From: an uncultured beta proteobacterium
Lineage (GTDB): Bacteria > Pseudomonadota > Gammaproteobacteria > Burkholderiales > SG8-41
Assembly: GCA_903889565.1 (NCBI GenBank)
Contig: CAISYC010000048.1
Coordinates: 65,680-129,679, forward strand
DNA length: 64,000 bases
Direction of reading: 5' to 3'
Part shown: piece by piece, positions 43,181 to 55,742 of the stretch
Numbering within the stretch: the stretch's first letter is position 1
Layout: each line of letters opens with the position of its first letter
The notes under the pieces: model-generated
Databases searched by the model: none
The model's input: only the letters and a program-made list of their open reading frames with translations
What the model was told of the DNA's origin: nothing
Position numbers and translations under genes: made by a program

Positions 43181-43615
43181 ATGAAAACAATTGCCATGTT
43201 CTCCAGCAGCGTATTGGCCCTGACCCTGGCGACAGGCCTCAATGCCGCGAACAGCCGCGATGACGCCGCGGCCGGCGGTGTGAACTGGGCCTGCAATCAG
43301 GAGCACGACGCCTATTTCCATGTCTCCTGCGTGCCGCAGCGCACACGCGCGGACACCGCGACGGCGCCGGCCGATACACTGCGCGAGCGCGATGCCGCGC
43401 CGGTTGCGCATGGTCATGACATGCGACCGGTCACCTTGCGCGGCGAGGCCGAAGTATTTTCCACGCGCGCGTGGCGCATACCGCTGTATTCGCAACCGGC
43501 GAGCGCAGCCTCGGCAGCCGGCCTGCTCGAAACCGTGCTGTGCGGCGGCGCTGCAGACTGCCGTGTTGATTATGCGGACGATGGACGCACCAGCGCATCG
43601 CCCCGGGCTCAGTAG
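43181..43615 (+). CDS. Secreted protein of unknown function beside the cytochrome genes
   Basis: 144 residues. Signal peptide MKTIAMFSSSVLALTLATGLNAA, then a polar domain with four cysteines (WACNQ, VSCVP, VLCGG, DCRVD) that could form two disulfides. No heme motif and no recognised family. GGGGGCG precedes the ATG. It converges with the 12-heme cytochrome gene, overlapping its last bases by seven. Confidence 0.65.
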   Translation: MKTIAMFSSSVLALTLATGLNAANSRDDAAAGGVNWACNQEHDAYFHVSCVPQRTRADTATAPADTLRERDAAPVAHGHDMRPVTLRGEAEVFSTRAWRIPLYSQPASAASAAGLLETVLCGGAADCRVDYADDGRTSASPRAQ

Positions 43616-45282
43616 CTGCGTCCGTTGTGCGACTCGCCGTGACAGTTGAGATAGCACTTTCTGGCGACCGTATCGACATACAGCTTGGCGGCAGCACCGG
43701 TGCCGACCGGCGTGTTATCGGTGGTTGAAAGATTGATCAGCCGGCTGTTGTAAGTCGTATTGCCCTGTGTGCTGCTGATGCCGTGCGGGTCGTGGCAGGC
43801 CTTGCAGCCGTAGCGCAGGTGCTCCGAGCGGTTGTGCGGCGATTCGCGCGTGACCACCGTCTGGCTGTGGCATTTGTAGCAGATGTCGCCCGCCGTCGGC
43901 GCGGCGGTCAGCGCATGCGGCCTTTCGAGCAACGCAAAATTGGTCGAACCATGCGGACCGTTCGGTCCGGTGCCGCCGGCGCCCGGCCCCGCATTGTTGT
44001 TGTGGCAATCGCTGCACTTGATCACGCTGGCCGTATTCCACGGCGCGACCAGGCTCGGCACATTGGCGCTGCGGCCGGGCCCGGCCACCGGGTGAAATGA
44101 AGGATTGAGCGTGTCGAATTCGAGCCGCGTATTGGTCTGCGCGAGCTGGCGCGTCGTGTATGGCGCCGGCTTGCCGTTACTGTCGGCGTGACAACGCAGG
44201 CAGATCTGGTACTCGGCGGTCGCCGGATTGATTTCGCTGCCGGCGATGTTGACGCCGCGCACGCCCGCCAGCGAACCGGCCAGCACGCCGCCGCTCGCAT
44301 TGCTGGCATGCGGATTGTGGCAATCGACACATTCGACATGGCGCGACTGCACCACCGCGGGTTCGACCGGATCATGCACGCCGGTGGTCGATGCTACCGG
44401 ATGGAGCGACGACTTGGCGAATTCGGACTGTATGTTTTTCGCGGCAACATTGCCGTTGTGACAGGAATAGCAGTTGTTTTCCTCGGCAGCGTAGTTGAGA
44501 TTCCATTTTTTGCCGCCCGCGGTGTGCGGCCGGTGGCAGTTCTCGCAGGCGTTGACCGCCACGGTGGTGCCGCTGGTGTGCGGCCACGGATTGGTGCCGG
44601 CACCGTTCCACGTCTTGCCCGACAGCCGGTGATCGCTCAGGCTCCAGTAGTTCTTGACGTGACAGGTCTGGCACAACGCTGAGGCCTGATTGGGGATCAC
44701 CAGAAATTTTCCGTTGCTGTCGTCGTGGGCGTCGTGACAACTCGTGCACTGCAATTGCCCCGATGCGTCGAGCCTGACGCGTCCGGTCAGCGTCGATGGC
44801 GCCACCAGTTCGCCGCGGGTCGCCGCCAGCGCCGCGGTATAGGGGATCGAAACCGGATGATCGCCTGAAAGGTCGGTGCCCAGATTGCTCGCCGAACCGG
44901 CCGGCATGGTCGTCACGCCGCCGGCCATGGTAATGGTCGAGGCGCGGTTCAAGACATCACCGAGCGCAATGGTGCCGTCGTGGCAACTCAGACACAACAG
45001 CGAAGCCCCGGTGGGCTGGCCGGCGTTGGCCTTCGCGGTCGAACTGCTGTACGGCACATAGCTGCCGCCCGGCGTGCGACGATTCCACAACGGCGCGGTC
45101 GGACTGCTGTTGTGCGGCGCATGACAGAAAATGCAGACCTGCGCCTCGCCCGCCGCCTTGACCGTGCCCGGACCGCTCGCCGAAAGATTGTGTTTGCTGG
45201 TGGCGAGCGCCGCCAGCGCGCCGCCGGCGCCGCACCACGCTGACAACAGGAGCAAACCGGCAAGCCAATTACGCCACCTCAT
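43609..45282 (-). CDS. Multiheme c-type cytochrome (11 CXXCH plus one CXXXCH)
   Basis: 557 residues with a signal peptide (LAGLLLLSAWCGAGGALA). Heme motifs in order: CIFCH, CLSCH, CTSCH, CQTCH, CENCH, CYSCH, CVDCH, CLRCH, CSDCH, CYKCH, CKACH, and finally CYLNCH, which has three residues between the cysteines. The segment CHAPHNSSPTAPLW and CLSCHDGTIALGDV place it in the doubled-CXXCH/cytochrome c3-like group found in metal-reducing bacteria. The first four hemes match the separate tetraheme protein of this locus. The ATG overlaps the stop of the upstream NHL gene (ATGA). Likely periplasmic or outer-surface electron carrier. Confidence 0.93.
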   Translation of the reverse strand: MRWRNWLAGLLLLSAWCGAGGALAALATSKHNLSASGPGTVKAAGEAQVCIFCHAPHNSSPTAPLWNRRTPGGSYVPYSSSTAKANAGQPTGASLLCLSCHDGTIALGDVLNRASTITMAGGVTTMPAGSASNLGTDLSGDHPVSIPYTAALAATRGELVAPSTLTGRVRLDASGQLQCTSCHDAHDDSNGKFLVIPNQASALCQTCHVKNYWSLSDHRLSGKTWNGAGTNPWPHTSGTTVAVNACENCHRPHTAGGKKWNLNYAAEENNCYSCHNGNVAAKNIQSEFAKSSLHPVASTTGVHDPVEPAVVQSRHVECVDCHNPHASNASGGVLAGSLAGVRGVNIAGSEINPATAEYQICLRCHADSNGKPAPYTTRQLAQTNTRLEFDTLNPSFHPVAGPGRSANVPSLVAPWNTASVIKCSDCHNNNAGPGAGGTGPNGPHGSTNFALLERPHALTAAPTAGDICYKCHSQTVVTRESPHNRSEHLRYGCKACHDPHGISSTQGNTTYNSRLINLSTTDNTPVGTGAAAKLYVDTVARKCYLNCHGESHNGRSY

Positions 45283-46304
45283 CCGGCACCGCCGACATAA
45301 CGAAATACCTGCACCCGGCGGTTGAACGAATCGGCGACATAGATGGTGTCGTCGTCGCCGATAAAAATGCCGGCAGGCAGCCAGAATTCGCCGCGTTCGT
45401 GTCCGAGCGCGCCAACCGACAGCAGCAGTCGCCCCTGCTCGTCGAACACCTGCATGGCGTTAAACAGGGCGTCGATGACGTAGATATGGCCGGCGCGATC
45501 TGCCGCCACTCCCTTCTGTCGCAACTGGTCTCCCGCGCCGTCGCCGCTCTGTCCAAACTTGCCGACAAAGCGGCCCTGCGGATCGAACATCTGAATGCGA
45601 AAATTCAGCGAGTCGGTGACATACAGGCGCCCCTGCGCATTGCACCACAGCAGCGTCGGAAAATTGAATTCGCCGTCGCCGGCGCCGCGCGTACCGATCC
45701 GTTCAAGCAGTTCGCCGCTGCGGTCGAACATCAGCAGTTGATGCGCGGCGGTGTCAACGACATACAGCCCGCCCGTGGCCCGATCCACCGCAATGCCGGT
45801 GGGCTGCTTTAATGTCGCGCGCAACGCGATGCGTTCCGCCGCCCTGGCGCCGCGCTTGATGACGAACACCGCCGCCAGCACGGAATCGGTAACATAGACC
45901 TCGCCTGCCGCGCCGGCCGCCAGCCCGACCGGCGACGGCAATGCGCCGCCATCGACCGCATGCAGCAACGCGTAGTCGCCGCTGGCGCGATCGAATCGAT
46001 GCACGCCTTTGGCCCCCGGATCGGCGACGTAGATCACGCCCTCGGCCACGACCACCGCCATCGGCCGCTGCAGCCGCGATTCGCTGCCACCGAACAGAGC
46101 ATCGGCGATGCGCTGGAAAAAACCGCGCTGGATGCCGAGATCGGCGGGTTGCGCAAAACTCATGACATGGGCGATACGCGGCGGGTCCGGCGCCGGCGGC
46201 CACAACAGCGGCGCTTCGGCCACCGGCCTCGGCACAACCTCGGCGCAGGCCGCGAGCAACAGCGCAAACAGAAGCAATGCGATCCGCGCAGTGAATCCAC
46301 ACAT
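45279..46304 (-). CDS. NHL-repeat beta-propeller lipoprotein (second)
   Basis: 341 residues. Lipobox LLLAAC after MCGFTARIALLLFA. The body is a run of NHL repeats, each with a GIAVD..G.LYVVD-type strand pair: RPMAVVVAEGVIYVADPGAK, SPVGLAAGAAGEVYVTDS, QPTGIAVDRATGGLYVVDTA, NFPTLLWCNAQGRLYVTDSL, QKGVAADRAGHIYVIDALFN and LPAGIFIGDDDTIYVADSFN, i.e. a six-bladed propeller. It follows the barrel gene by two bases and overlaps the 12-heme gene. Lipid-anchored propellers in such loci probably act as scaffolds. Confidence 0.9.
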   Translation of the reverse strand: MCGFTARIALLLFALLLAACAEVVPRPVAEAPLLWPPAPDPPRIAHVMSFAQPADLGIQRGFFQRIADALFGGSESRLQRPMAVVVAEGVIYVADPGAKGVHRFDRASGDYALLHAVDGGALPSPVGLAAGAAGEVYVTDSVLAAVFVIKRGARAAERIALRATLKQPTGIAVDRATGGLYVVDTAAHQLLMFDRSGELLERIGTRGAGDGEFNFPTLLWCNAQGRLYVTDSLNFRIQMFDPQGRFVGKFGQSGDGAGDQLRQKGVAADRAGHIYVIDALFNAMQVFDEQGRLLLSVGALGHERGEFWLPAGIFIGDDDTIYVADSFNRRVQVFRYVGGAG

Positions 46305-46306
46305 GC

Positions 46307-48382
46307 TCAGAATTCCCGCCGTGCCAGAATCTGCACCAGCGTGCGCGAGCGGTCGAGCGCCGCCTGCGTTTCCCGCGTATGCCCCAGATCGAATGTGAGG
46401 CTGGCCTTGCGGTAACGCCATTGCGCCTTCAGCGAAGCGGTCACGCGGCTGCGCTCGACCGGCGTGCCGGTATCGACTTCGTAGCCGGCATCGGCCGAAA
46501 CATCGAGACCGAACCAGTGGCGCGACCAGTAACGGAAATCGTAACCGGTCAGATTGATGTTCTGGATCGAATTCTCGTAGTCGACCCGCAGCCGGCGCGT
46601 CGAAAAACGCAGCGTGCCGGAACTGAACAGCGGTTCTTCCGTCTGCACATAGGCGTCCTCGGCAATGCGCCGGTATGGCGAGATCGTCTCACGCCGGTCT
46701 TCCAGTTCCCAGCCGCCGCCCACCATCAGCTCGAATGATTTCGCCAGCGGCAGATCGGTGCGCGCGCCGAACAGATTGCTGCGTATCGTGTTGAGCTGGA
46801 AAGTCGGCGCGCCGGAAGTCAGTTGCGATGCCGAATCGTAGAGCCGGTAGTAGAGATTGAGATAGCTGCGCAGGTTCCAGCCGAGATTCATTGTTTGATC
46901 GGTCTGCGTGTAGGCATAGGTGCCGCCGACGTCGTAGCTGTAATCGACCAGCACGTCCTGTCCATCGAGAATGTTGCCGCCGATCAAACGCTGCACGCGC
47001 GTCTCGAGGCCGACCACCGTCAGCGTGTAGTCATGGCCCTCGATGAAGGTCTGCGTGCGCGTCAGATTGCTCAGCGTCACGCTGCCGGCGGTCACATGCT
47101 GGTGCGCCAGCGCGCTGTAGGTGGTGCCCGTCAGCGTGATGCGTTCGCCGAGCACCGGCGTCTGACTGGCCACCGCGTGCTGATCGTGCAGGTCGTAGCG
47201 CACGCCGTAACTGGCCTGCGCGGTGCCGCCGGCCAATGCGTGCTGGTAGCGCGCGGAGCCGTCGACGCCGTAGAGCTGCGCCGAAAACTGGTTGGTCTGG
47301 TTGTCCTCGCCGCGCACGCCCAGCGTGGTGGTCAGATCCTTAGCGATCGTATAACTCAATCCGGCCGAGGCCGCATTCAGCGCCGACACAATTTCGCCCT
47401 GACTGCTGGCGCTGTAGCTGTAGTTGCCGAAGGTCTGCAGGCTTTCCGACAGCCGGCCGCGCAGATCGAACAGCACGCGCAGATCCCGGCGATCCGGAAT
47501 TGCTCCCTGTTCCAGCGCATAACTCTGCGTGTTGTAGTTGAGCAGGTTGACGAGGTCGTACTGGCGTGCGCCGCCGAACTGGAAGCGTGAATCGAGACTG
47601 AAGCCCTGGCTGGCGGCGGCGCTCGACTGGATCGGTATATTGGGGCTGCCGCTCATCGACTCCTGATGCGTGTTCTGGTACTGGAACTGGGTCGAACCGA
47701 GCGCGCCGAAGGAACGGGTCGCGCGCAGGCCGACGCGGTCGACCTGATCGTCGATCACGCGGTCGGCGCCGCGGCCCTGAAAATGCGAACGCGTGGCGTC
47801 GATGTAGAGCGGCACCGGCGTTACCGGCGCAAGCAGGGCGAAATCAAAACCGTAGCGGGTATTCTGCTGAGTCAACACCTGCCCCGGCGACACGCTGACG
47901 GTCGGATTCAGATGATCATAGAAGACCGATCCGCGATACGGTTTGTCGCGCAGAAAATTTGCGCGGCCGGTAAAGTTGTAGAGTGCCCCCTGCGACTGCG
48001 CATCGCCCGAATCGGCGGTGAAACTCTGCCGCTGCAGGATCGGCCCGCCGCCGATGTCGAGGCTGACGAAGCCCGGGTGATAGGCGTAACTGTGGGTCAT
48101 GAAAAACACCTCCTGACGCAGATCGGATTGCATCTGCCGCGATGGCGCGCCGCCGGGTTGCGCGGTCACGATCTCGTCGCGCAGAAACCGTGTGGTGGCC
48201 GAGCCTTCCACACCGGTAAGCCGGAATGGCGCGATCTCCTCCGCCGCGTTGCCGCCACCGGCGCCCAGCGAGAAAAGAACTGCACCGGCGATACGCCGGA
48301 CCACGTTACCGAAGTAACCGGCGCGCGACATTCGCCGTGCCGCGCGAGCAGACGCGGCAGGTTGCCGATTCGTTTGCTCCAT
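46307..48382 (-). CDS. Outer-membrane beta-barrel protein of the cytochrome locus
   Basis: About 691 residues. After a basic N-terminus and signal sequence (ending GGGNAAEE) the whole chain is alternating, aromatic-rich strands (for example FFMTHSYAYHPGFVSLDIGGG, NLGWNLRSYLNLYYRLYDSA) ending in ILARREF with the terminal Phe of outer-membrane barrels. No cysteine is present, so it lacks the CXXC of MtrB. Length is comparable to porins of porin-cytochrome conduits. The start is uncertain: ATG 48382 is used, with ATG 48331 and TTG 48412 as options. Flanked on both sides by NHL lipoprotein genes. Confidence 0.82.
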   Translation of the reverse strand: MEQTNRQPAASARAARRMSRAGYFGNVVRRIAGAVLFSLGAGGGNAAEEIAPFRLTGVEGSATTRFLRDEIVTAQPGGAPSRQMQSDLRQEVFFMTHSYAYHPGFVSLDIGGGPILQRQSFTADSGDAQSQGALYNFTGRANFLRDKPYRGSVFYDHLNPTVSVSPGQVLTQQNTRYGFDFALLAPVTPVPLYIDATRSHFQGRGADRVIDDQVDRVGLRATRSFGALGSTQFQYQNTHQESMSGSPNIPIQSSAAASQGFSLDSRFQFGGARQYDLVNLLNYNTQSYALEQGAIPDRRDLRVLFDLRGRLSESLQTFGNYSYSASSQGEIVSALNAASAGLSYTIAKDLTTTLGVRGEDNQTNQFSAQLYGVDGSARYQHALAGGTAQASYGVRYDLHDQHAVASQTPVLGERITLTGTTYSALAHQHVTAGSVTLSNLTRTQTFIEGHDYTLTVVGLETRVQRLIGGNILDGQDVLVDYSYDVGGTYAYTQTDQTMNLGWNLRSYLNLYYRLYDSASQLTSGAPTFQLNTIRSNLFGARTDLPLAKSFELMVGGGWELEDRRETISPYRRIAEDAYVQTEEPLFSSGTLRFSTRRLRVDYENSIQNINLTGYDFRYWSRHWFGLDVSADAGYEVDTGTPVERSRVTASLKAQWRYRKASLTFDLGHTRETQAALDRSRTLVQILARREF

Positions 48383-48439
48383 ATCACTCGACGATCCGGC
48401 GGCGATGCGCAAAGGCGCGCCATTGCAATTCGCCGGCGC

Positions 48440-49570
48440 TCAATGGCCACCCCGCGTCGGGGCGGTCGCCCGCGCATCCGGCGCGTAATCCATGCCGCGC
48501 ATTTTTCCGAAACCGAACACGTCGATCTTGTTGGGCCCGAACTGGCTCGCCACCAGAATCAGGTATTCGATCGAAAATCCCGGATCGGCATAGCGGCGGA
48601 ACAACTCGACGTTGTCGTAATCGATGCTGACGCCGGCCGGCAGATTGAGCCCCTCGGCGCGATCGCCGGGCTGACCAAAGTAGAGCAGCAGCTTGCCGCT
48701 GTTGTCGAATATCTGCACGTTTTCGAATGCCGAGTCGCCGACATAAAGCCGACCGGCGCGATCCACCGCGATGCCCTTCGGTCTGCTGAAGGTGCCAAAC
48801 TCGGCGCCGACCTCGCCGTAAACACGCACCGGCTTGCCCTCGGCGGTAAAGCGCTGCACGCGGTAATTGCTGGTTTCGACGACATAGATGTCGCCGTCCG
48901 GGCCGATCGCGATATTGGTCGGGTGAAACAATTCGCCGGGCGCGGAGCCGGGCTCGCCGAAGCGGAACAGCAGGCGCCCGCTGCGTTTGTCGAGCACCTG
49001 CACCTGATGATGCTTGATATCGACAACATAGAGGCGCTCGCCGGCGATCGCCGTATCGACGGGCTTGAACTGGCCTTCGGCGCCGAAAGCACCGACGAAA
49101 CGTTCGTTACGGTCGAAGATCAGCACCTGGTCGCGTCCGGTATCGGTGACGTACTTGGTGCCGTCGGCATCGATGGTGACATTGATCGGCCGCTTCATGC
49201 GCCCGTTGCCGGAACCGGATACCAGCGTAAAACTGCGCTGGTTCAGATCGAATACAGCGAGGCCGGGCGCGCGGCTGTCGGCGACGTAAATCTTGCCGTC
49301 GAACACGGCGACGCCGTACGGCTGGCGCAGGCGCTGCGCATTCGGATCGTCGCCAACGATGAATTTGGCGAAGCCGCTGGCCGGCGCGCTGATGTCGCGA
49401 TCGCTGGCGATGGTGGTCAGGTGCTGGATGCGCGGGGCATTCGGCAGCGGCGGATAAAACACGCCCGCCGCCGGCAGCGGCGACTTGGCGCCTGGTGCCG
49501 CGCACGCGCCCAGCAGCATCGCCGCCAGAACCGGCATCAGCTGTATTGCAAGTCGTTGGAATGGATTCAT
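48440..49570 (-). CDS. NHL-repeat beta-propeller lipoprotein (first)
   Basis: 376 residues. Lipobox MLLGAC. NHL repeats: RQPYGVAVFDGKIYVADSRA, RPINVTIDADGTKYVTDTGR, KPVDTAIAGERLYVVDIKHH, HPTNIAIGPDGDIYVVETSN, RPKGIAVDRAGRLYVGDSAF, and a weaker last blade near NLPAGVSIDYDNVELFRRY. GGAGA lies five bases before the ATG. It resembles the second NHL protein of the locus in layout but differs in sequence throughout. Confidence 0.9.
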   Translation of the reverse strand: MNPFQRLAIQLMPVLAAMLLGACAAPGAKSPLPAAGVFYPPLPNAPRIQHLTTIASDRDISAPASGFAKFIVGDDPNAQRLRQPYGVAVFDGKIYVADSRAPGLAVFDLNQRSFTLVSGSGNGRMKRPINVTIDADGTKYVTDTGRDQVLIFDRNERFVGAFGAEGQFKPVDTAIAGERLYVVDIKHHQVQVLDKRSGRLLFRFGEPGSAPGELFHPTNIAIGPDGDIYVVETSNYRVQRFTAEGKPVRVYGEVGAEFGTFSRPKGIAVDRAGRLYVGDSAFENVQIFDNSGKLLLYFGQPGDRAEGLNLPAGVSIDYDNVELFRRYADPGFSIEYLILVASQFGPNKIDVFGFGKMRGMDYAPDARATAPTRGGH

Positions 49571-49605
49571 TGCGATCTCCGGAAGTTTGTGCGGAATGCG
49601 CTGCG

Positions 49606-50058
49606 TCATGCCTGCGCCAATTTGCACGCGGCAATAAATTTGCGGCCGGTCTGCTCATCGACGCGATGCAGGCTCGAACGCGGCTTCCACACGCCCACCC
49701 TTACCTCCTGCCAGATGTAGTACGACTTGCCGGGCTCCGCATCGAGCGTCAAGGCCGAGGCATCCTCGGCGTGGGAACTGATCTGGTGGCGGCCCGGCTC
49801 GACTTCCCACATGACGTAGGTCTGCGCGACAGTGCGGCCACCGGTGTACCCGTCGAGCTTGACCGTGATCGGCACTGCAAAGCCGAGCGATTCATGGCGA
49901 TATACGAAGATCTGCGCCTTGCCCGGCCTCACGGCGGCGGTCTTTGCACGCCAGTCATCCTGCGGCGAACCCAGCGACACCGGCGACGATTGACAACCCG
50001 CAAGGCAAAACGCCGACATGAGCACGATGCATAAGCCGATTCTTTTGATGCAATTCAT
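49606..50058 (-). CDS. DUF2846-type lipoprotein
   Basis: 150 residues. Lipobox CLAGC after MNCIKRIGLCIVLMSAF. The core (KAQIFVYRHESLGFAVPITV, then KLDGYTGGRTVAQTYVMWEV and PGRHQISSHAEDASALTLD, with GKSYYIWQEVRVG) matches DUF2846, a small beta-sandwich domain of unknown function. GAGGAGG precedes the ATG. It is ten bases after another small lipoprotein gene and upstream of the NHL gene, so it belongs to the cytochrome operon. Confidence 0.85.
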   Translation of the reverse strand: MNCIKRIGLCIVLMSAFCLAGCQSSPVSLGSPQDDWRAKTAAVRPGKAQIFVYRHESLGFAVPITVKLDGYTGGRTVAQTYVMWEVEPGRHQISSHAEDASALTLDAEPGKSYYIWQEVRVGVWKPRSSLHRVDEQTGRKFIAACKLAQA

Positions 50059-50068
50059 TGTTGCCTCC

Positions 50069-50431
50069 TCAGGAGCACGGCAGACTGTGGCCGCTGGCAT
50101 TCGGGAAATAGCAGGCGCGTTCAAGCCAGGCCGGCAGCCGCGGCGGGACTGCGTTTCCCGCCACCTGCACATCGGACTCGCGCAACGCCGGCGGCGGGGT
50201 CGATACCACAGTGAGGATCGCCTCGTCGTCATCCTTCCCTGCGAAGGCGACATTGCGTATCACGCCCACCGTACTGCCGCCCATCACAGCGCCATTCGCA
50301 TAACCGCCCACCACCGTGCTTGCCATTGACAGCGCAAGCAATTGCGGCGCCGAAAAAACGCCGCAGCCCGGCAACAACGCCGTCAGCAGCAACATTATCG
50401 GCACCCGCCGCAAACCACTCTTCCATTTCAT
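50069..50431 (-). CDS. Small lipoprotein of the cytochrome operon, unknown
   Basis: 120 residues. Lipobox LLPGC. A Gly/Ala-rich hydrophobic stretch (LALSMASTVVGGYANGAVMG) follows, then a polar tail with two cysteines (RACYFPNASGHSLPCS). No family recognised. It is the first gene of the tightly packed lipoprotein-NHL-barrel-NHL-cytochrome run. The 225 bases between it and the tetraheme gene contain no gene I can support. Confidence 0.7.
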   Translation of the reverse strand: MKWKSGLRRVPIMLLLTALLPGCGVFSAPQLLALSMASTVVGGYANGAVMGGSTVGVIRNVAFAGKDDDEAILTVVSTPPPALRESDVQVAGNAVPPRLPAWLERACYFPNASGHSLPCS

Positions 50432-50656
50432 CGTTCGCTCGCTTTCAGACGACGCCGTGCCTGCCCGCGCCGGTATCGCGGCGCATGCACTGCGTCTGGG
50501 TTAAATGGATCGTCGGTCGACGGCGGCCGCACACAACCGGAACCGCTGAGCACATTGCGGATTCAGTCGTGATGCCCTCGCGGAGGCCGCCTGCCATGGC
50601 CGTCCGCCCCGCCTCACAGCCGCCGGCGATCTTCGCTGCAGCGCCCCGCCGGCGCG

Positions 50657-51310
50657 CTATTTGTTGTGACAGGAAAGGCAGATCTGGCTGCCCGCCTCCG
50701 GCAACTTGACCAGGTGACTGGTGCCGACGGTAAACGTGTTGTGCACGTCATGACAGGACGAGCATTCGAGTTTGCCGTTGAACAGCAGCAGTGAGGCGAT
50801 GGTGCCGGATTTGGTCTGGCTGCCTGAGCCGATCGTCACCGCCTTGGTCGACGGATCGAACAACGCGCCGTCGGCGGTGGCGAGCGCCGTGTTGTAAATA
50901 AAACCGATCGGATGATCGTCGGCGAGCGAGGTGCCGAGGTTATTGACCGCCGAAATCTGCGTGGTACCGGTCATGCCGCCGAAGCTGTCGACCGCGACCG
51001 TCCCGTCGTGACAGGACATGCAGAGCTTCGACAGGCCGCTTGGCTGCGCCAGCGGCCCAGCGTTCAGCGTCGGGCTGCTGTAGAGCGTATAGGTCTGCGT
51101 GGAATTCGTGTGACTCCACAGCGGCGCGTCGGTGACGCTGGTATCGGACTTGTGCGCCACATGGCAGGCAATGCAGATACGGCCGCCGGACCAGTTTTTG
51201 CTCGTGAAGTCGTGCAGCGAACCGGTGATGGTCCCCGCCAGCAGCGATTGCGCAGCCAACAGCAGCAGCGCTCCCAATGACAATCGTATAGGCGTACGTA
51301 GTGAGCTCAT
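50657..51310 (-). CDS. Tetraheme c-type cytochrome
   Basis: 217 residues with signal peptide ([15 protein letters not shown]). Four motifs: CIACH, CMSCH, CSSCH, CLSCH. The spacing and flanking words (CHVAHKSDTSVTDAPLW, LCMSCHDGTVAVDS, DDHPIGFIYNTAL, CSSCHDVHN) align with the first four hemes of the 12-heme protein, so the two are paralogues. GAGGG lies before the ATG. It is the gene nearest the palindrome-rich divergent promoter region and may be made as its own transcript or lead the operon. Confidence 0.92.
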   Translation of the reverse strand: MSSLRTPIRLSLGALLLLAAQSLLAGTITGSLHDFTSKNWSGGRICIACHVAHKSDTSVTDAPLWSHTNSTQTYTLYSSPTLNAGPLAQPSGLSKLCMSCHDGTVAVDSFGGMTGTTQISAVNNLGTSLADDHPIGFIYNTALATADGALFDPSTKAVTIGSGSQTKSGTIASLLLFNGKLECSSCHDVHNTFTVGTSHLVKLPEAGSQICLSCHNK

Positions 51311-51764: not shown

Positions 51765-52637
51765 ATGAGCCAGCAAGCGACAATCAAACCGACGACAGCC
51801 GCACTCAACTTTGCCGCACCGGCACGTCGCACCATCGTCTATGCCGCCTGCCTTGCTTTGCTCCTTCTGGTCTGGCGCGTCGTCATCGGCAGCCCGTACT
51901 CATCCGGCGCGGGTATCGGCTACCTGATGGGAATCGCCGGCGGTTCGCTGATGCTGATCCTGCTGCTCTATCCGCTGCGCAAACGCATCCGGTTGATGCA
52001 GAACTGGGGCGCCCTCAAACACTGGTTTCGCCTGCACATGATCGGCGGCGTCGCCGGCCCGCTGCTCGTGCTGTTTCATTCGACTTTTCGCGTGGGCTCG
52101 CTGAATGCCGCAGTGGCGCTCGGCTCGATGCTGCTGGTGGTCGCCAGCGGCTTGATCGGAAGATTTCTCTATCGCAAGATTCACCGCGGGCTTTACGGCA
52201 GCGAGCTGACGCTCAAGGAATTGCAGCAGACACTGCAGCGGGACCTGCAGACGCTGGCGCCGCATCTGCGCGCACTGCCGGATGTCCACGCCGAAATCGA
52301 CCGCTTTGTCGCCCTCGTTGCCGCACCGCCGCCGGGCTGGCAACAGCGTACGACGCATTTTCTTTCGCTCGGCTGGAAGCGCTGGCAGGTTCACCGCCGG
52401 GTGCGGCGCGCGCTGGCCGCAACGGCGTCGCCTGCCGGCGGCCACGCGGATTCAACCCGCGCCGGCTTGCAGGCGCTGCTGCGCACCATCGATGCTGTTC
52501 TGCGCGCCGCGCAGCAGGCCGCGCAGTTCTCGACCTACGAGCGCCTGTTCTCGCTCTGGCACGTCGTGCATCTGCCGTTTCTGTGCATGCTCGTCATCAC
52601 CGCGATCATTCATGTCGTGGCTGTACACGTTTACTAG
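51765..52637 (+). CDS. Inner-membrane protein with b-heme-like histidines
   Basis: 290 residues. Five hydrophobic segments: about 23-43, 52-70, 92-108, 113-135 and 268-289, with a soluble helical loop between the last two. Histidines at 86, 91, 105, 266, 269, 283 and 288 lie in or at the ends of helices, which suits a di-heme b-type protein of the ferric-reductase/b561 kind. No family was firmly recognised. Its last 26 bases overlap the start of the 24-heme cytochrome gene. Likely role: passing electrons between the membrane Fe-S/flavoprotein or quinone and the periplasmic cytochrome (inference). Confidence 0.78.
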   Translation: MSQQATIKPTTAALNFAAPARRTIVYAACLALLLLVWRVVIGSPYSSGAGIGYLMGIAGGSLMLILLLYPLRKRIRLMQNWGALKHWFRLHMIGGVAGPLLVLFHSTFRVGSLNAAVALGSMLLVVASGLIGRFLYRKIHRGLYGSELTLKELQQTLQRDLQTLAPHLRALPDVHAEIDRFVALVAAPPPGWQQRTTHFLSLGWKRWQVHRRVRRALAATASPAGGHADSTRAGLQALLRTIDAVLRAAQQAAQFSTYERLFSLWHVVHLPFLCMLVITAIIHVVAVHVY

Positions 52638-54447
52638 ACGCCCGCTTGCGGCGGCGGTTCTTGTCACAGCTTTCATGTTCTCGATGCCGGCGCACGCTGC
52701 ACAGAATCTCGAAACGGCGATCATGCCCGGGCGCCTGATCGAGGGTCACGCCAAACTGGAGGTTGATTGCGCGAACTGCCACGTGCGGATGGACCGCGCC
52801 GCACAACCCCGGCTGTGCATGGACTGCCACAAACCGGTGGCTGCGGACGTGCGCAGTGGCAGCGGTTATCACGGCCGCATGCGGCCGCAGGAATGCAGAA
52901 CCTGCCACACCGAACACAAGGGGCGTGAGGCGAAAATTGCCGCGTTTGATCAAAACCGCTTCGATCACGCCATGACCGACTTCGCGCTGCGCGGCAAACA
53001 CGCGGCGGTGACCTGCGCCGCCTGTCACCGGCCGCGCGTCAAGCACAGCGAAACACCAGCCGCCTGCGTCAACTGCCATCGCAAGGACGACCGGCACAAG
53101 GGCGGCCTCGGCGAAAAATGCACGGGTTGCCATGACGAGCGCGGCTGGAAGGAGGCGCGCTTCGATCACGCGACCACGCACTTCCCACTGCTGTCCGGCC
53201 ACCTGCGCGTCAAATGCGAGGAATGCCATATCAACCAGCGTTACGCCGGCACGCCGGCCGAATGCGTAAGCTGCCATCGCAAGGACGATGCGCACAAGGG
53301 CCAGTTCGGGGGACGCTGCGAAACCTGTCACGACAGCGGCAAATGGAAAGCCCCGACCTTCAGTCACGATATCGACACGCGGTTTGCCCTGCGTTACCGG
53401 CATCGCAGCGTGAAGTGCGAAAGCTGCCACCGCAGACCGCCGCTGCAGGAGAAACTCGCGACCACGTGCGCGAGCTGTCATCGCAAGGACGACGTGCACA
53501 AGGGTGCGCTTGGCGACAAATGCGAGAGCTGCCACGCGGAGCGCGGGTGGAAAGGCAGCCTGTTCGACCATAACCGCGACGCGCGCTTTGCCCTGCGCGG
53601 CAAACATCGCGACACGAAATGCGCGAGCTGCCACAAGGACAGCGGTTTCCGCGATCCGCCGCCGATGACCTGCGCCGCCTGTCACGACAGCGATGACCGC
53701 GAAAAGGGACACCGGGGACAATTGGGCAAACAATGCGAAAACTGCCACAACGAACGCGGCTGGCGCGGCACCAGCTTCGATCACAAACAATCTGAATTTC
53801 CGCTGCTCGGGCGCCACGCCCAGGCGCAATGCCGGCAATGCCACACCGACAACCGCTTCAAGGATGCGTCACGGGATTGCAGTTCCTGTCACACCAAGGA
53901 CGACCAGCATAAGGAAAAACTCGGCCCGCGCTGCGCTGACTGCCACGACGCGCGCGGCTGGAAACCGGGCCGCTTCGACCATGACAAAACCGGTTTCAGG
54001 CTCGATGGCAGCCACGCAAAGGCGACCTGCCTGTCCTGCCATACGGTGCCGGTGAAGGACAAATTTACGCTTACCGCCGATTGCGGCAGCTGCCATGCCA
54101 AGGACGACCCGCACCGCGCGCGCTTCGGCGGGCGCTGCGAAAACTGCCATGATTCCCGTTCGTGGAAGTTGCCCGTGTTTGACCACAACCAGCGCAGCCG
54201 TTTCAAACTCGATGGTGCGCACAGCAAGGTCGGCTGTTATGCCTGCCACAGCACGGCGGTCACCGACAAGCCTGTACTGGCGGTCGAGTGCGCGAGTTGC
54301 CACGCAAAAAAGGATGATGTGCACTTTGGCAGCTACGGCAACCAGTGCGAACGCTGCCATGTCGCCGAGGGCTGGCGCAAAATCATCGATGGCCAGCGCA
54401 ATCCACAGCCTGCGCGCGCAGCGGGTAGCGGGGCACGCCAGCCATGA
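52612..54447 (+). CDS. 24-heme c-type cytochrome made of tandem three-heme repeats
   Basis: 611 residues with a signal peptide (PLAAAVLVTAFMFSMPAHA). I count 24 CXXCH motifs, one per 25 residues. After a first group of three, a unit of about 67 residues recurs roughly seven times, each with three CXXCH plus the words RKDDxHKGxxG, GWKxxxFDH and FxLxGxH. These supply three extra histidines per three hemes, so bis-His coordination is expected. Start at ATG 52612 gives the signal peptide directly and overlaps the upstream gene. The stop overlaps the next gene (ATGA). Probably a periplasm-spanning wire; I do not recognise a named homologue. Confidence 0.93.
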   Translation: MSWLYTFTRRPLAAAVLVTAFMFSMPAHAAQNLETAIMPGRLIEGHAKLEVDCANCHVRMDRAAQPRLCMDCHKPVAADVRSGSGYHGRMRPQECRTCHTEHKGREAKIAAFDQNRFDHAMTDFALRGKHAAVTCAACHRPRVKHSETPAACVNCHRKDDRHKGGLGEKCTGCHDERGWKEARFDHATTHFPLLSGHLRVKCEECHINQRYAGTPAECVSCHRKDDAHKGQFGGRCETCHDSGKWKAPTFSHDIDTRFALRYRHRSVKCESCHRRPPLQEKLATTCASCHRKDDVHKGALGDKCESCHAERGWKGSLFDHNRDARFALRGKHRDTKCASCHKDSGFRDPPPMTCAACHDSDDREKGHRGQLGKQCENCHNERGWRGTSFDHKQSEFPLLGRHAQAQCRQCHTDNRFKDASRDCSSCHTKDDQHKEKLGPRCADCHDARGWKPGRFDHDKTGFRLDGSHAKATCLSCHTVPVKDKFTLTADCGSCHAKDDPHRARFGGRCENCHDSRSWKLPVFDHNQRSRFKLDGAHSKVGCYACHSTAVTDKPVLAVECASCHAKKDDVHFGSYGNQCERCHVAEGWRKIIDGQRNPQPARAAGSGARQP

Positions 54448-55742
54448 GTGAATTTCCACTCTGGGCGATTTATGCGCTGCCGCTGGCATGCATCCTGTGC
54501 CTTTATCTGCTCGCGCGCCGACGCCGCGAAATTCGCGCACGCGACACCATGCGACGCGCAGAGGCCGCCGGCCTGACCGACCCGCCCAGCCTGCATCCGG
54601 TCGTCGATCACACGCTCTGCATGGGGTCCGGCGCATGCGCGCGCGCCTGTCCGGAAGGCACCATCGGCGTGGTCAACGGCAAGGCGCACCTGATCAATCC
54701 GACCGTGTGCATCGGCCACGGCGCCTGTGCCGCCGCCTGCCCGGTTGAGGCGATCAAACTGGTATTCGGCACCGAACGACGCGGTGTTGATATCCCTTTG
54801 GTCAAACCGAGCTTTGAAACCAATGTCGCCGGCGTTTATATCGCCGGCGAACTCGGCGGCATGGGACTGATCCGCAAGGCCGCCGAACAGGGCCGTCAGG
54901 CCATGGAGTCGATCAGCAAGACACCCGGCACGCACGACCAGCTCGACGTATTGATTGTCGGCGCCGGACCGGCGGGGCTCGCGGCGACGCTGGCGGCAAT
55001 GGAAAAGAAATTGCGCTTTGTCACCATCGAGCAGGAAGATTCGCTCGGCGGCACCGTCTATCACTATCCGCGCAACAAAATCGTCATGAGCCAGCCGGTT
55101 ACGCTGCCGCTGGTCGGCAAAGTGAAGCTGGGAGAAATTTCCAAGGAATCGCTGCTCGCGTTCTGGCAGGATATTGTCGATCGCGTCGGCATGCCGATCC
55201 GCTATGGCGAGCGCCTCGAAAAAATCGTATTGATCGACGACGGATTTGCAGTCAGAACCGCAGGCGCCGATTACCGCACGCGCAATGTGCTGCTTGCGAT
55301 CGGCCGGCGCGGCACTCCGCGCAAGCTTGCCGTGCCGGGTGAAGACCTGCCGAAGGTCGTTTACCGTTTGGTCGATCCGGAACAGTACCGCGGCAAGCGC
55401 GTGCTGGTGGTCGGCGGCGGCGACAGCGCCATCGAGGCTGCGGTTGCCATCGCCGGCGAAACAGGCGCACACGCCACGCTCTCCTATCGCGGTAATGCCT
55501 TCGGTCGCGTCAAACCACAGAACCGCGAGCGGCTGGCCGGCGCCGAGAAAAGCGGCAAGCTCAAGGTCATGTTCGAATCAAGCGCAGTCAGCATCGACCA
55601 GGGGCACGCCGTGCTTGAACACAATGGCGGCACCGTCACGATCGACAACGATGCCGTCATCGTCTGTGCGGGCGGCATACTTCCGACACCGATGCTGAAG
55701 GACATTGGCGTCATCGTCGAAACCAAGTACGGCACCGCTTAG
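54444..55742 (+). CDS. Membrane-anchored Fe-S/flavin oxidoreductase (thioredoxin-reductase-like, NAD(P)-binding)
   Basis: 432 residues. An N-terminal transmembrane helix (PLWAIYALPLACILCLYLLA) is followed by a ferredoxin domain with CMGSGACARACPEG and CIGHGACAAACPVEAI: in each motif the second Cys of CxxCxxCxxxCP is replaced, by Ser62 and His92. Then comes a segment with VAGVYIAGELGGMGLIRKA, an FAD site (VLIVGAGPAGLAATLAA) and an NAD(P) site (VLVVGGGDSAIEAAVAIAG), as in thioredoxin-reductase-like enzymes. It lacks the CxxC redox disulfide of thioredoxin reductase. Co-translated with the 24-heme gene, it should link NAD(P)H and the cytochrome chain. Confidence 0.88.
   Translation: MSEFPLWAIYALPLACILCLYLLARRRREIRARDTMRRAEAAGLTDPPSLHPVVDHTLCMGSGACARACPEGTIGVVNGKAHLINPTVCIGHGACAAACPVEAIKLVFGTERRGVDIPLVKPSFETNVAGVYIAGELGGMGLIRKAAEQGRQAMESISKTPGTHDQLDVLIVGAGPAGLAATLAAMEKKLRFVTIEQEDSLGGTVYHYPRNKIVMSQPVTLPLVGKVKLGEISKESLLAFWQDIVDRVGMPIRYGERLEKIVLIDDGFAVRTAGADYRTRNVLLAIGRRGTPRKLAVPGEDLPKVVYRLVDPEQYRGKRVLVVGGGDSAIEAAVAIAGETGAHATLSYRGNAFGRVKPQNRERLAGAEKSGKLKVMFESSAVSIDQGHAVLEHNGGTVTIDNDAVIVCAGGILPTPMLKDIGVIVETKYGTA

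Follow-up and report, generated by a model that had tools for sequence, protein, structure and literature searches.

The DNA considered here is a 64,000-nucleotide stretch (hereinafter the window) of contig CAISYC010000048.1 from an uncultured beta proteobacterium, in which three overlapping genes on the forward strand code for the parts of a predicted electron-transfer module. The first, MEM (51765–52637; 290 aa), is a five-helix inner-membrane protein predicted to be a di-heme cytochrome b. The second (52612–54447; 611 aa) is a secreted cytochrome c with 24 CXXCH motifs, and the third, FES (54444–55742; 432 aa), is a membrane-anchored Fe-S/FAD/NAD(P) oxidoreductase, which we propose as the point of electron entry. 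The open reading frame (ORF) coordinates give overlaps of 26 nucleotides between the first two genes and 4 nucleotides between the last two. A first-pass annotation, made from the letters of the window, had reported these overlaps together with a membrane protein bearing seven histidines, a secreted protein with 24 CXXCH motifs and an anchored Fe-S/FAD/NAD(P) protein, and all of its coordinates, overlaps and motif counts are correct.

The membrane protein and the 24-heme cytochrome

The five hydrophobic stretches of MEM are taken as helices from hydropathy, and the placement of basic residues suggests a cytoplasmic N-terminus, a periplasmic C-terminus and, connecting helices 4 and 5, a long loop on the cytoplasmic side. 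Seven histidines lie near the helices (H86, H91, H105, H266, H269, H283 and H288). Five of these, namely H91, H105, H266, H269 and H283, are invariant in all 42 aligned homologues, while H86 is a histidine in 17 of the 42 and H288 is unconserved. H91 and H105 on helix 3 (codons at 52035–52079, forward strand) are 14 residues apart, as are H269 and H283 on helix 5 (52569–52613, forward strand). The former pair is predicted to provide ligands for heme b on the cytoplasmic and periplasmic sides, respectively, and the latter to provide their partner ligands; the invariance and spacing of these four histidines, two per helix, are compatible with a pair of b hemes. Both pairs belong to WX3HX13H motifs (W87/H91/H105 and W265/H269/H283), and an SGxxG motif spans S128–G132. 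Across 85 loci with MEM, the two WX3HX13H motifs are found in 74 and the SGxxG motif in 84.

These features recall the inner-membrane protein (IMP) of PCC3, a conduit described by He et al. in 2017 as comprising a porin, an extracellular cytochrome, a periplasmic cytochrome and an IMP (PMC5566968; this and the other papers cited below are represented by part of their text). The PCC3 IMP is described there as a protein of about 300 aa with five helices, SGXXG on helix 4 and WX3HX13H on helices 3 and 5, a signature common to PCC3 and PCC4, and it was proposed to hold two b hemes in the manner of ferric reductases or cytochrome b. Profile searches of MEM against Pfam and NCBIfam recovered no significant family. 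PHROGs likewise gave no match, and MEM was accordingly rejected as a phage protein. In the MEM tree, from which L013, L024, L036, L144, L147 and L148 were excluded as short or redundant, the window version groups with those of loci L062, L002, L063 and L003 within the Proteobacteria/Acidobacteriota half.

The CXXCH motifs of the cytochrome are arranged in eight triheme-like blocks of three, with matches to the Cytochrome_C7/CIII Pfam families, and all 48 of its cysteines lie inside these motifs. Of its 51 histidines, 27 lie outside the motifs, a number sufficient for bis-His ligation. The N-terminus resembles a signal peptide by eye, and a periplasmic location as a PCC3-type heme wire is likely. 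No PDB structure matched the protein by sequence. Its 25 residues per heme (611/24) compare with 22–39 residues per heme and a median of 21 hemes for the PCC3 periplasmic cytochromes (PMC5566968), which in the Gallionellaceae have 21, 24 or 27 motifs (PMC10734462). A cytochrome follows MEM in 77 of the 85 MEM loci, with 18–27 CXXCH motifs in the 74 complete ones; the eight loci in which it was not seen are mostly those at contig ends.

FES and its partnership with MEM

The hydrophobic helix at the N-terminus of FES leads into RRRR, and next come a two-cluster ferredoxin domain (Pfam Fer4_10 at residues 52–100) and FAD- and NAD(P)-binding domains (Pyr_redox_3 at residues 170–420). Motif parsing of the Fe-S domain (54597–54764, forward strand) reveals that the second cysteine of both motifs is substituted in the window, by Ser62 in motif I and His92 in motif II. 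In a set of 67 sequences, one of which could not be parsed, this position is a histidine in motif II of all 66 parsed members, while in motif I it is C in 32, S in 24, T in nine and V in one. With its invariant histidine, motif II is thus predicted to bind either a [4Fe-4S] cluster with 3Cys-1His ligation or a [3Fe-4S] cluster.

The FAD- and NAD(P)-binding part (54942–55739, forward strand) matches Pyr_redox_3 at 2.6e-41 and the YpdA model TIGR04018 at 3.4e-44, the latter with 150.9 bits and hence below its cut-off of 339.9. The closest PDB relatives are YpdA (7a7b and 7a76), followed by thioredoxin reductase (TrxR)-like proteins and ferredoxin-NADP reductases. A FES profile aligns to 7a7b with 157 bits, such that residues 3–273 of the latter correspond to FES columns 173–438. 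Residues 277–293 of 7a7b align to FES columns 126–142, ahead of the FAD domain, an alignment that is weak by itself (5.2 bits). Likewise, the 48-aa segment (54792–54923, forward strand) searched in isolation recovers flavoprotein C-termini only at E values of 0.21 or higher, with one unrelated ATP-synthase match in ten. When the segment is moved to the end of FES, the score against the YpdA model rises from 144.7 to 159.2 bits, and the match to the TrxR model extends from 204 to 297 of its 300 positions, rising from 60.8 to 69.0 bits. Because the displaced segment matches the C-terminal piece of YpdA and rejoining it raises the model scores, FES is best read as a circularly permuted YpdA/TrxR-like flavoprotein.

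This kinship raises the alternative that FES is a disulfide reductase or a ferredoxin-NADP reductase serving a thiol or ferredoxin circuit, with its neighborhood being incidental. The nearest families are indeed the YpdA bacillithiol disulfide reductases and the TrxR-like ferredoxin-NADP reductases. However, the cysteine of the YpdA GGGPCG motif, which we take to be the catalytic one, is an alanine in FES (A177, in 30 of 32 sequences), and the flavoprotein part of the window FES has no CXXC motif, the one CILC being situated in the membrane helix. We therefore rejected a disulfide reductase role for FES; moreover, FES possesses its own Fe-S domain and tracks MEM across genomes, leaving the thiol or ferredoxin circuit as a whole scarcely credible. 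As regards the nucleotide, the second NAD(P) strand (LSYRG) is not trailed by an acidic residue, and R349, R355 and K357 are kept in 31 of 32 sequences, which together favor NADP(H) as the cofactor.

The tracking of MEM by FES is seen in a draw of 321 genomes from the class, each at least 80% complete, with cut-offs of E<=1e-30 for MEM and E<=1e-60 for FES, the former chosen after viewing a gap between 6e-37 and 2e-20. FES is present in 37 of the 38 MEM-positive genomes as compared to two of the other 283 (Fisher p 6e-45, uncorrected for kinship); counted by family, MEM is found in 30 and MEM together with FES in 29. Of the two FES-positive, MEM-negative genomes, G153 has the gene on a 3.5-kb contig shared with cytochrome fragments, so that MEM may simply be unassembled, while the match in G192 is a different 777-aa protein. 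The FES genes of G124 and G363 are truncated by contig ends. All four class genomes with two MEM matches at E<=1e-40 (G090, G093, G154 and G348) also carry two FES genes. Of 60 relatives, five have MEM (at E<=1e-50), and the identical five have FES; three of them are among the 15 relatives from the window's own genus. A weaker MEM paralogue is the only version in eight of the 321 class genomes and 11 of the 60 relatives, none of which has FES.

A wider scan with one genome per species, based on patterns from the window protein and hence not a census, recovered 42 loci with a MEM relative; those of known phylum belong to Pseudomonadota, Acidobacteriota (one), Bacteroidota and Ignavibacteriota. 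The flanks of these loci are short, and L043 comprises only a MEM fragment. FES is encoded in 31 of the 42 and a cytochrome ORF with at least 18 CXXCH motifs in 39. Of the 11 loci lacking FES, L027 has a piece of it, and a search of the genomes of the other ten found it in nine. Both the scan and the tree thus place MEM repeatedly with FES and/or a large cytochrome in four phyla, a recurrence that goes beyond chance.

The first-pass annotation had left it to be seen whether the three genes are rarely neighbors in related genomes. They are not: 66 of 86 loci hold both MEM and FES, which lie within 1.5 kb of each other in 58 of the 66 (L078, a duplicate of L002, was dropped from this count, L012 and L013 come from one metagenome-assembled genome (MAG), and the MEM proteins of L019 and L021 are identical). 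The two genes are on the same strand in 30 of the 66 and on opposite strands in 36. The survival of the linkage through changes of order and strand points to a shared function rather than to a single inherited operon. FES also adjoins MEM in Bacteroidota and Ignavibacteriota. In the Bacteroidota loci L029, L034 and L035 the order is MEM, FES, a 20-heme cytochrome, a second cytochrome (with 16, 16 and 13 hemes, respectively) and a protein of about 540 aa. The latter, whose family is present in 14 loci, resembles an outer-membrane barrel by eye, so that these loci possibly constitute a whole-envelope conduit in one operon.

Several further associations were observed around these families. In L065 (5560–12129), and similarly in L066–L076, a MEM paralogue has as its neighbor a protein that combines an FHA-like domain with ten CXXCH motifs, and L065 additionally codes for two proteins, one with an HbpS domain and one with an SH3 domain. 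FES is absent from the eleven relatives with weak MEM matches of this kind. The 777-aa protein encoded in L162 (5908–8241) shares the permuted flavoprotein part of FES and carries its Fe-S domain at the C-terminus; its 16-kb locus has no MEM match. An ankyrin-repeat protein of about 660 aa, with Sel1 repeats too in two of three cases, lies beside FES in L108 (10459–12471), L128 (11480–13471) and L006 (3976–5946), and ORFs of similar size stand beside FES in many of the class loci.

The proposed electron path and its alternatives

We posit that the three genes probably code for the inner half of a trans-envelope conduit of the PCC3 type, furnished with a cytoplasmic NAD(P)H input, forming an NADPH-oxidase-like path with a probable hand-over to a Uet-like cassette encoded upstream. 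In the proposed mechanism, FES, anchored by its N-terminal helix at the cytoplasmic face, would oxidize NAD(P)H on its FAD, and its two Fe-S clusters would relay electrons one at a time to the b heme that MEM has on the cytoplasmic side (H91/H269). From there they would cross MEM to its second b heme, on the periplasmic side (H105/H283), and pass to the 24-heme wire, which would hand them to an outer-membrane conduit, in this case probably the divergent Uet-like cassette. The whole path would resemble an NADPH oxidase or ferric reductase split into parts, with multiheme cytochromes as the extracytoplasmic acceptor. Gene order, overlaps, motifs and co-occurrence are direct observations, and the permutation comes from sequence profiles; from these we infer the cofactors, the NADPH preference, the docking of FES on MEM, the formation of a complex, the outward direction and the hand-over to the Uet-like cassette. 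The first-pass annotation had likewise traced a path from reduced nucleotide through the membrane to a periplasmic heme wire: a redox unit of that kind is supported by the present analysis, with the direction and the heme binding still being predictions.

Outward electron flow is favored by the membrane potential. Given that no energy would be conserved in such a flow, we prefer the disposal of excess reductant or the reduction of extracellular acceptors as the likely purpose. The circuit may also have been assembled with another flavoprotein: in L077 (5363–7717) a MEM-like paralogue lies between an 8-heme cytochrome and an FAD/NAD/2Fe-2S reductase unrelated to FES, an independent example of an NAD(P)H reductase beside a membrane protein of this kind.

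A number of observations weigh against this proposal. MEM has no match to the Pfam Ferric_reduct family (PF01794) at E<=1, and its sole match by sequence in PDB is a kinesin coil at E 0.92. The partnership with FES has its exceptions: one MEM-positive MAG (G380/L007) has no FES in its genome; G244 has an intact MEM frame with only a short adjacent piece of FES (a 115-aa ORF covering residues 5–97); the FES of G091 is split into two pieces; and the Bacteroidales MAG Zod_Metabat.155 (L012 and L013) has two MEM loci and one FES match, with the second MEM at a contig end. A quinone site on MEM may be compatible with the present data, quinone exchange having been proposed for the PCC3 IMP by He et al. 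(PMC5566968). The host genome codes for RuBisCO and an MtrB/PioB porin, which suit electron uptake as well as export, and an uptake direction is thus conceivable. Finally, one inner-membrane gene of PCC3 in CL21 increased along with Fe(II)-oxidizing ability (PMC12442390).

A rival account is the original PCC3 model, under which the quinone pool is the redox partner of MEM and the conduit imports electrons from Fe(II) or another extracellular donor, with FES as a side partner or feeding another step. This model is set out in the model and figure legends of PMC5566968, and it draws support from the presence of PCC3 in 26 complete and 11 partial genomes of Gallionellaceae Fe(II)-oxidizers (PMC10734462) and from the RuBisCO and MtrB/PioB of the host. 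However, a quinone-only scheme does not predict a near-obligate NAD(P)H flavoprotein partner, and both PCC3 clusters of ES-1 are down on Fe(II) relative to thiosulfate (PMC8788666); on balance, we regard it as unlikely. Alternatively, the same circuit might run inward to serve CO2 fixation, with extracellular electrons passing via the wire, MEM and FES to reduce NAD(P)+ directly. The host RuBisCO would suit such a role, as would the Uet-like cassette, a type reported from cathode-oxidizing Tenderiales. Nevertheless, donors at the level of Fe(II) are too oxidizing, moving electrons inward costs membrane potential, and no coupling subunit was seen, rendering this version decidedly improbable.

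Returning to the outward NAD(P)H-fed path, we lean slightly towards extending it to PCC3-type conduits in general, from Proteobacteria and Acidobacteriota to Bacteroidota and Ignavibacteriota. Under this extension, they would be NAD(P)H-fed oxidases in which FES, with its His-ligated cluster, is the missing core subunit, and would act as a reductant-export valve rather than as a quinone-linked Fe(II) oxidase, with an inner half that can be plugged into either the PCC3 porin and extracellular wire or a Uet-like cassette. From 2017 up to papers as recent as those of 2025 and 2026, PCC3 has been treated as a predicted iron-oxidation conduit with an inferred IMP function; its function is stated to be untested in PMC12442390, and PCC3 and UetJ are called predicted clusters in PMC13386937. 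The near-obligate NAD(P)H flavoprotein partner offers a direct test of both the electron source of PCC3 and the direction of flow. If the proposal is true, it would bring to extracellular electron transfer a principle like that of NADPH oxidases, and would reassign the PCC3 electron source from the quinone pool to NAD(P)H.

The outer half and comparison with known systems

Just upstream of MEM, and divergent from it, lies a five-gene cassette (43609–51310, reverse strand) of predicted outer-membrane function that did not figure in the first-pass finding. Starting from the MEM side, it codes for a tetraheme cytochrome (50657–51310; four CXXCH motifs), a first NHL propeller (48440–49627), a predicted porin-like β-barrel protein (46307–48412), a second NHL propeller (45279–46421) and a UetJ-like undecaheme cytochrome (43609–45282), which has 11 CXXCH motifs and one CX3-4CH and matches a Pfam family of paired CXXCH motifs. 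Both propellers were identified by the NHL Pfam family. Homologues of the barrel protein are present in seven of the 321 class genomes including the window's own, and a tblastn search finds the five genes in the same order in all six of the others. There, their neighbors include other cytochromes and, by eye, in some cases a cytochrome-b-like protein. The tetraheme cytochrome is 46–54% identical to those in the six other cassettes and 80–88% identical to those in two genus relatives. The cassette also adjoins MEM in the remaining two genomes of the genus that carry MEM, with all five genes in L062 and four of five in L078, where the stretch stops before the undecaheme position.

Of the 59 MEM loci whose downstream sequence extends for 5.5 kb or more, 52 have a second multiheme cytochrome there. 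Two of the seven without it are genus relatives of the window, and the others may reflect the picking of ORFs. No ORF with CXXCH lies between FES and the end of the window, and the second cytochrome was also not found in the genus relatives L002 and L062. In many MEM loci the second cytochrome is followed by large proteins; a Pfam scan of four of these detected SPOR in two (L004 and L108) and a weak TPR in the other two (L006 and L007), and they may represent the PCC3 porin. The window locus thus has the appearance of a PCC3 inner half combined with an outer half of the Uet-like kind, which suggests that such conduits swap their inner and outer halves as modules.

Compared by description rather than by Uet sequences, the cassette matches the tetraheme, barrel, two NHL and undecaheme components of Uet in both composition and order. 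Uet additionally has three triheme cytochromes and the peptidyl-prolyl isomerase UetB (PMC10734462). In contrast, no ORF of at least 90 aa with three CXXCH motifs lies in the 43–56 kb interval, which is the part of the genome searched for them, and the Pfam scan of the cassette proteins, which was not a search dedicated to it, found no peptidyl-prolyl isomerase. MtrCAB and MtoAB share the logic of a trans-envelope heme conduit. However, an MtrCAB-like module was rejected for the window, as its cytochrome falls below the TIGR03508 cut-off (13.2 versus 192.2 bits) and hence outside DmsE/MtrA, and the cassette barrel has no Pfam match and lies outside MtrB_PioB, the MtrB/PioB of the host being encoded elsewhere in its genome.

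With NADPH oxidases and ferric reductases (FRD, PF01794), the module shares the two HX13H motifs on helices 3 and 5 and a cytoplasmic NAD(P)H-FAD module with electrons directed outward, a direction that is presumptive for the window. It differs from them in that MEM falls outside PF01794, the acceptor would be a multiheme cytochrome, and the flavoprotein is a separate, TrxR-like and permuted protein with Fe-S clusters. YpdA and the TrxR-like ferredoxin-NADP reductases have the FAD and NAD(P) domains of FES, which is distinguished from them by its permutation, its added Fe-S domain and membrane anchor and the replacement of the GGGPCG cysteine by alanine.

The closest parallel is PCC3, the four-component definition of which is repeated in PMC10734462, PMC12442390 and PMC8788666. 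MEM has the size, the five helices, the SGxxG and the two WX3HX13H motifs of its IMP, and the 24 hemes at 25 residues each correspond to its large cytochrome of predicted periplasmic location. Unlike PCC3, the window lacks a second cytochrome of the extracellular type, the tetraheme and undecaheme proteins being of another type, and no PCC3 porin was recognized, the nearby barrel belonging to another cassette; since the extracellular cytochrome is absent, the module is not a complete PCC3. The window also departs from PCC3 in having FES and a Uet-like outer half. The PCC4 type has an Fe-S gene (pfam13247), and some further cytochrome/IMP clusters hold another redox protein (PMC5566968). The available text of PMC5566968, PMC10734462, PMC12442390, PMC8788666 and PMC13386937 does not mention FES, which the figures or supplementary tables of PMC5566968 may nonetheless show, and no flavoprotein partner of PCC3 is named in the corresponding portions of PMC5371394, PMC7399161, PMC13322032, PMC13390432 and PMC6344600. 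The first-pass annotation had not recognized the combination as a described system; in light of the above, this view has to be revised, in that the pairing of MEM with a periplasmic cytochrome of 21–27 hemes corresponds to the PCC3 inner half published in 2017 (PMC5566968), and the FES partner is the new part.

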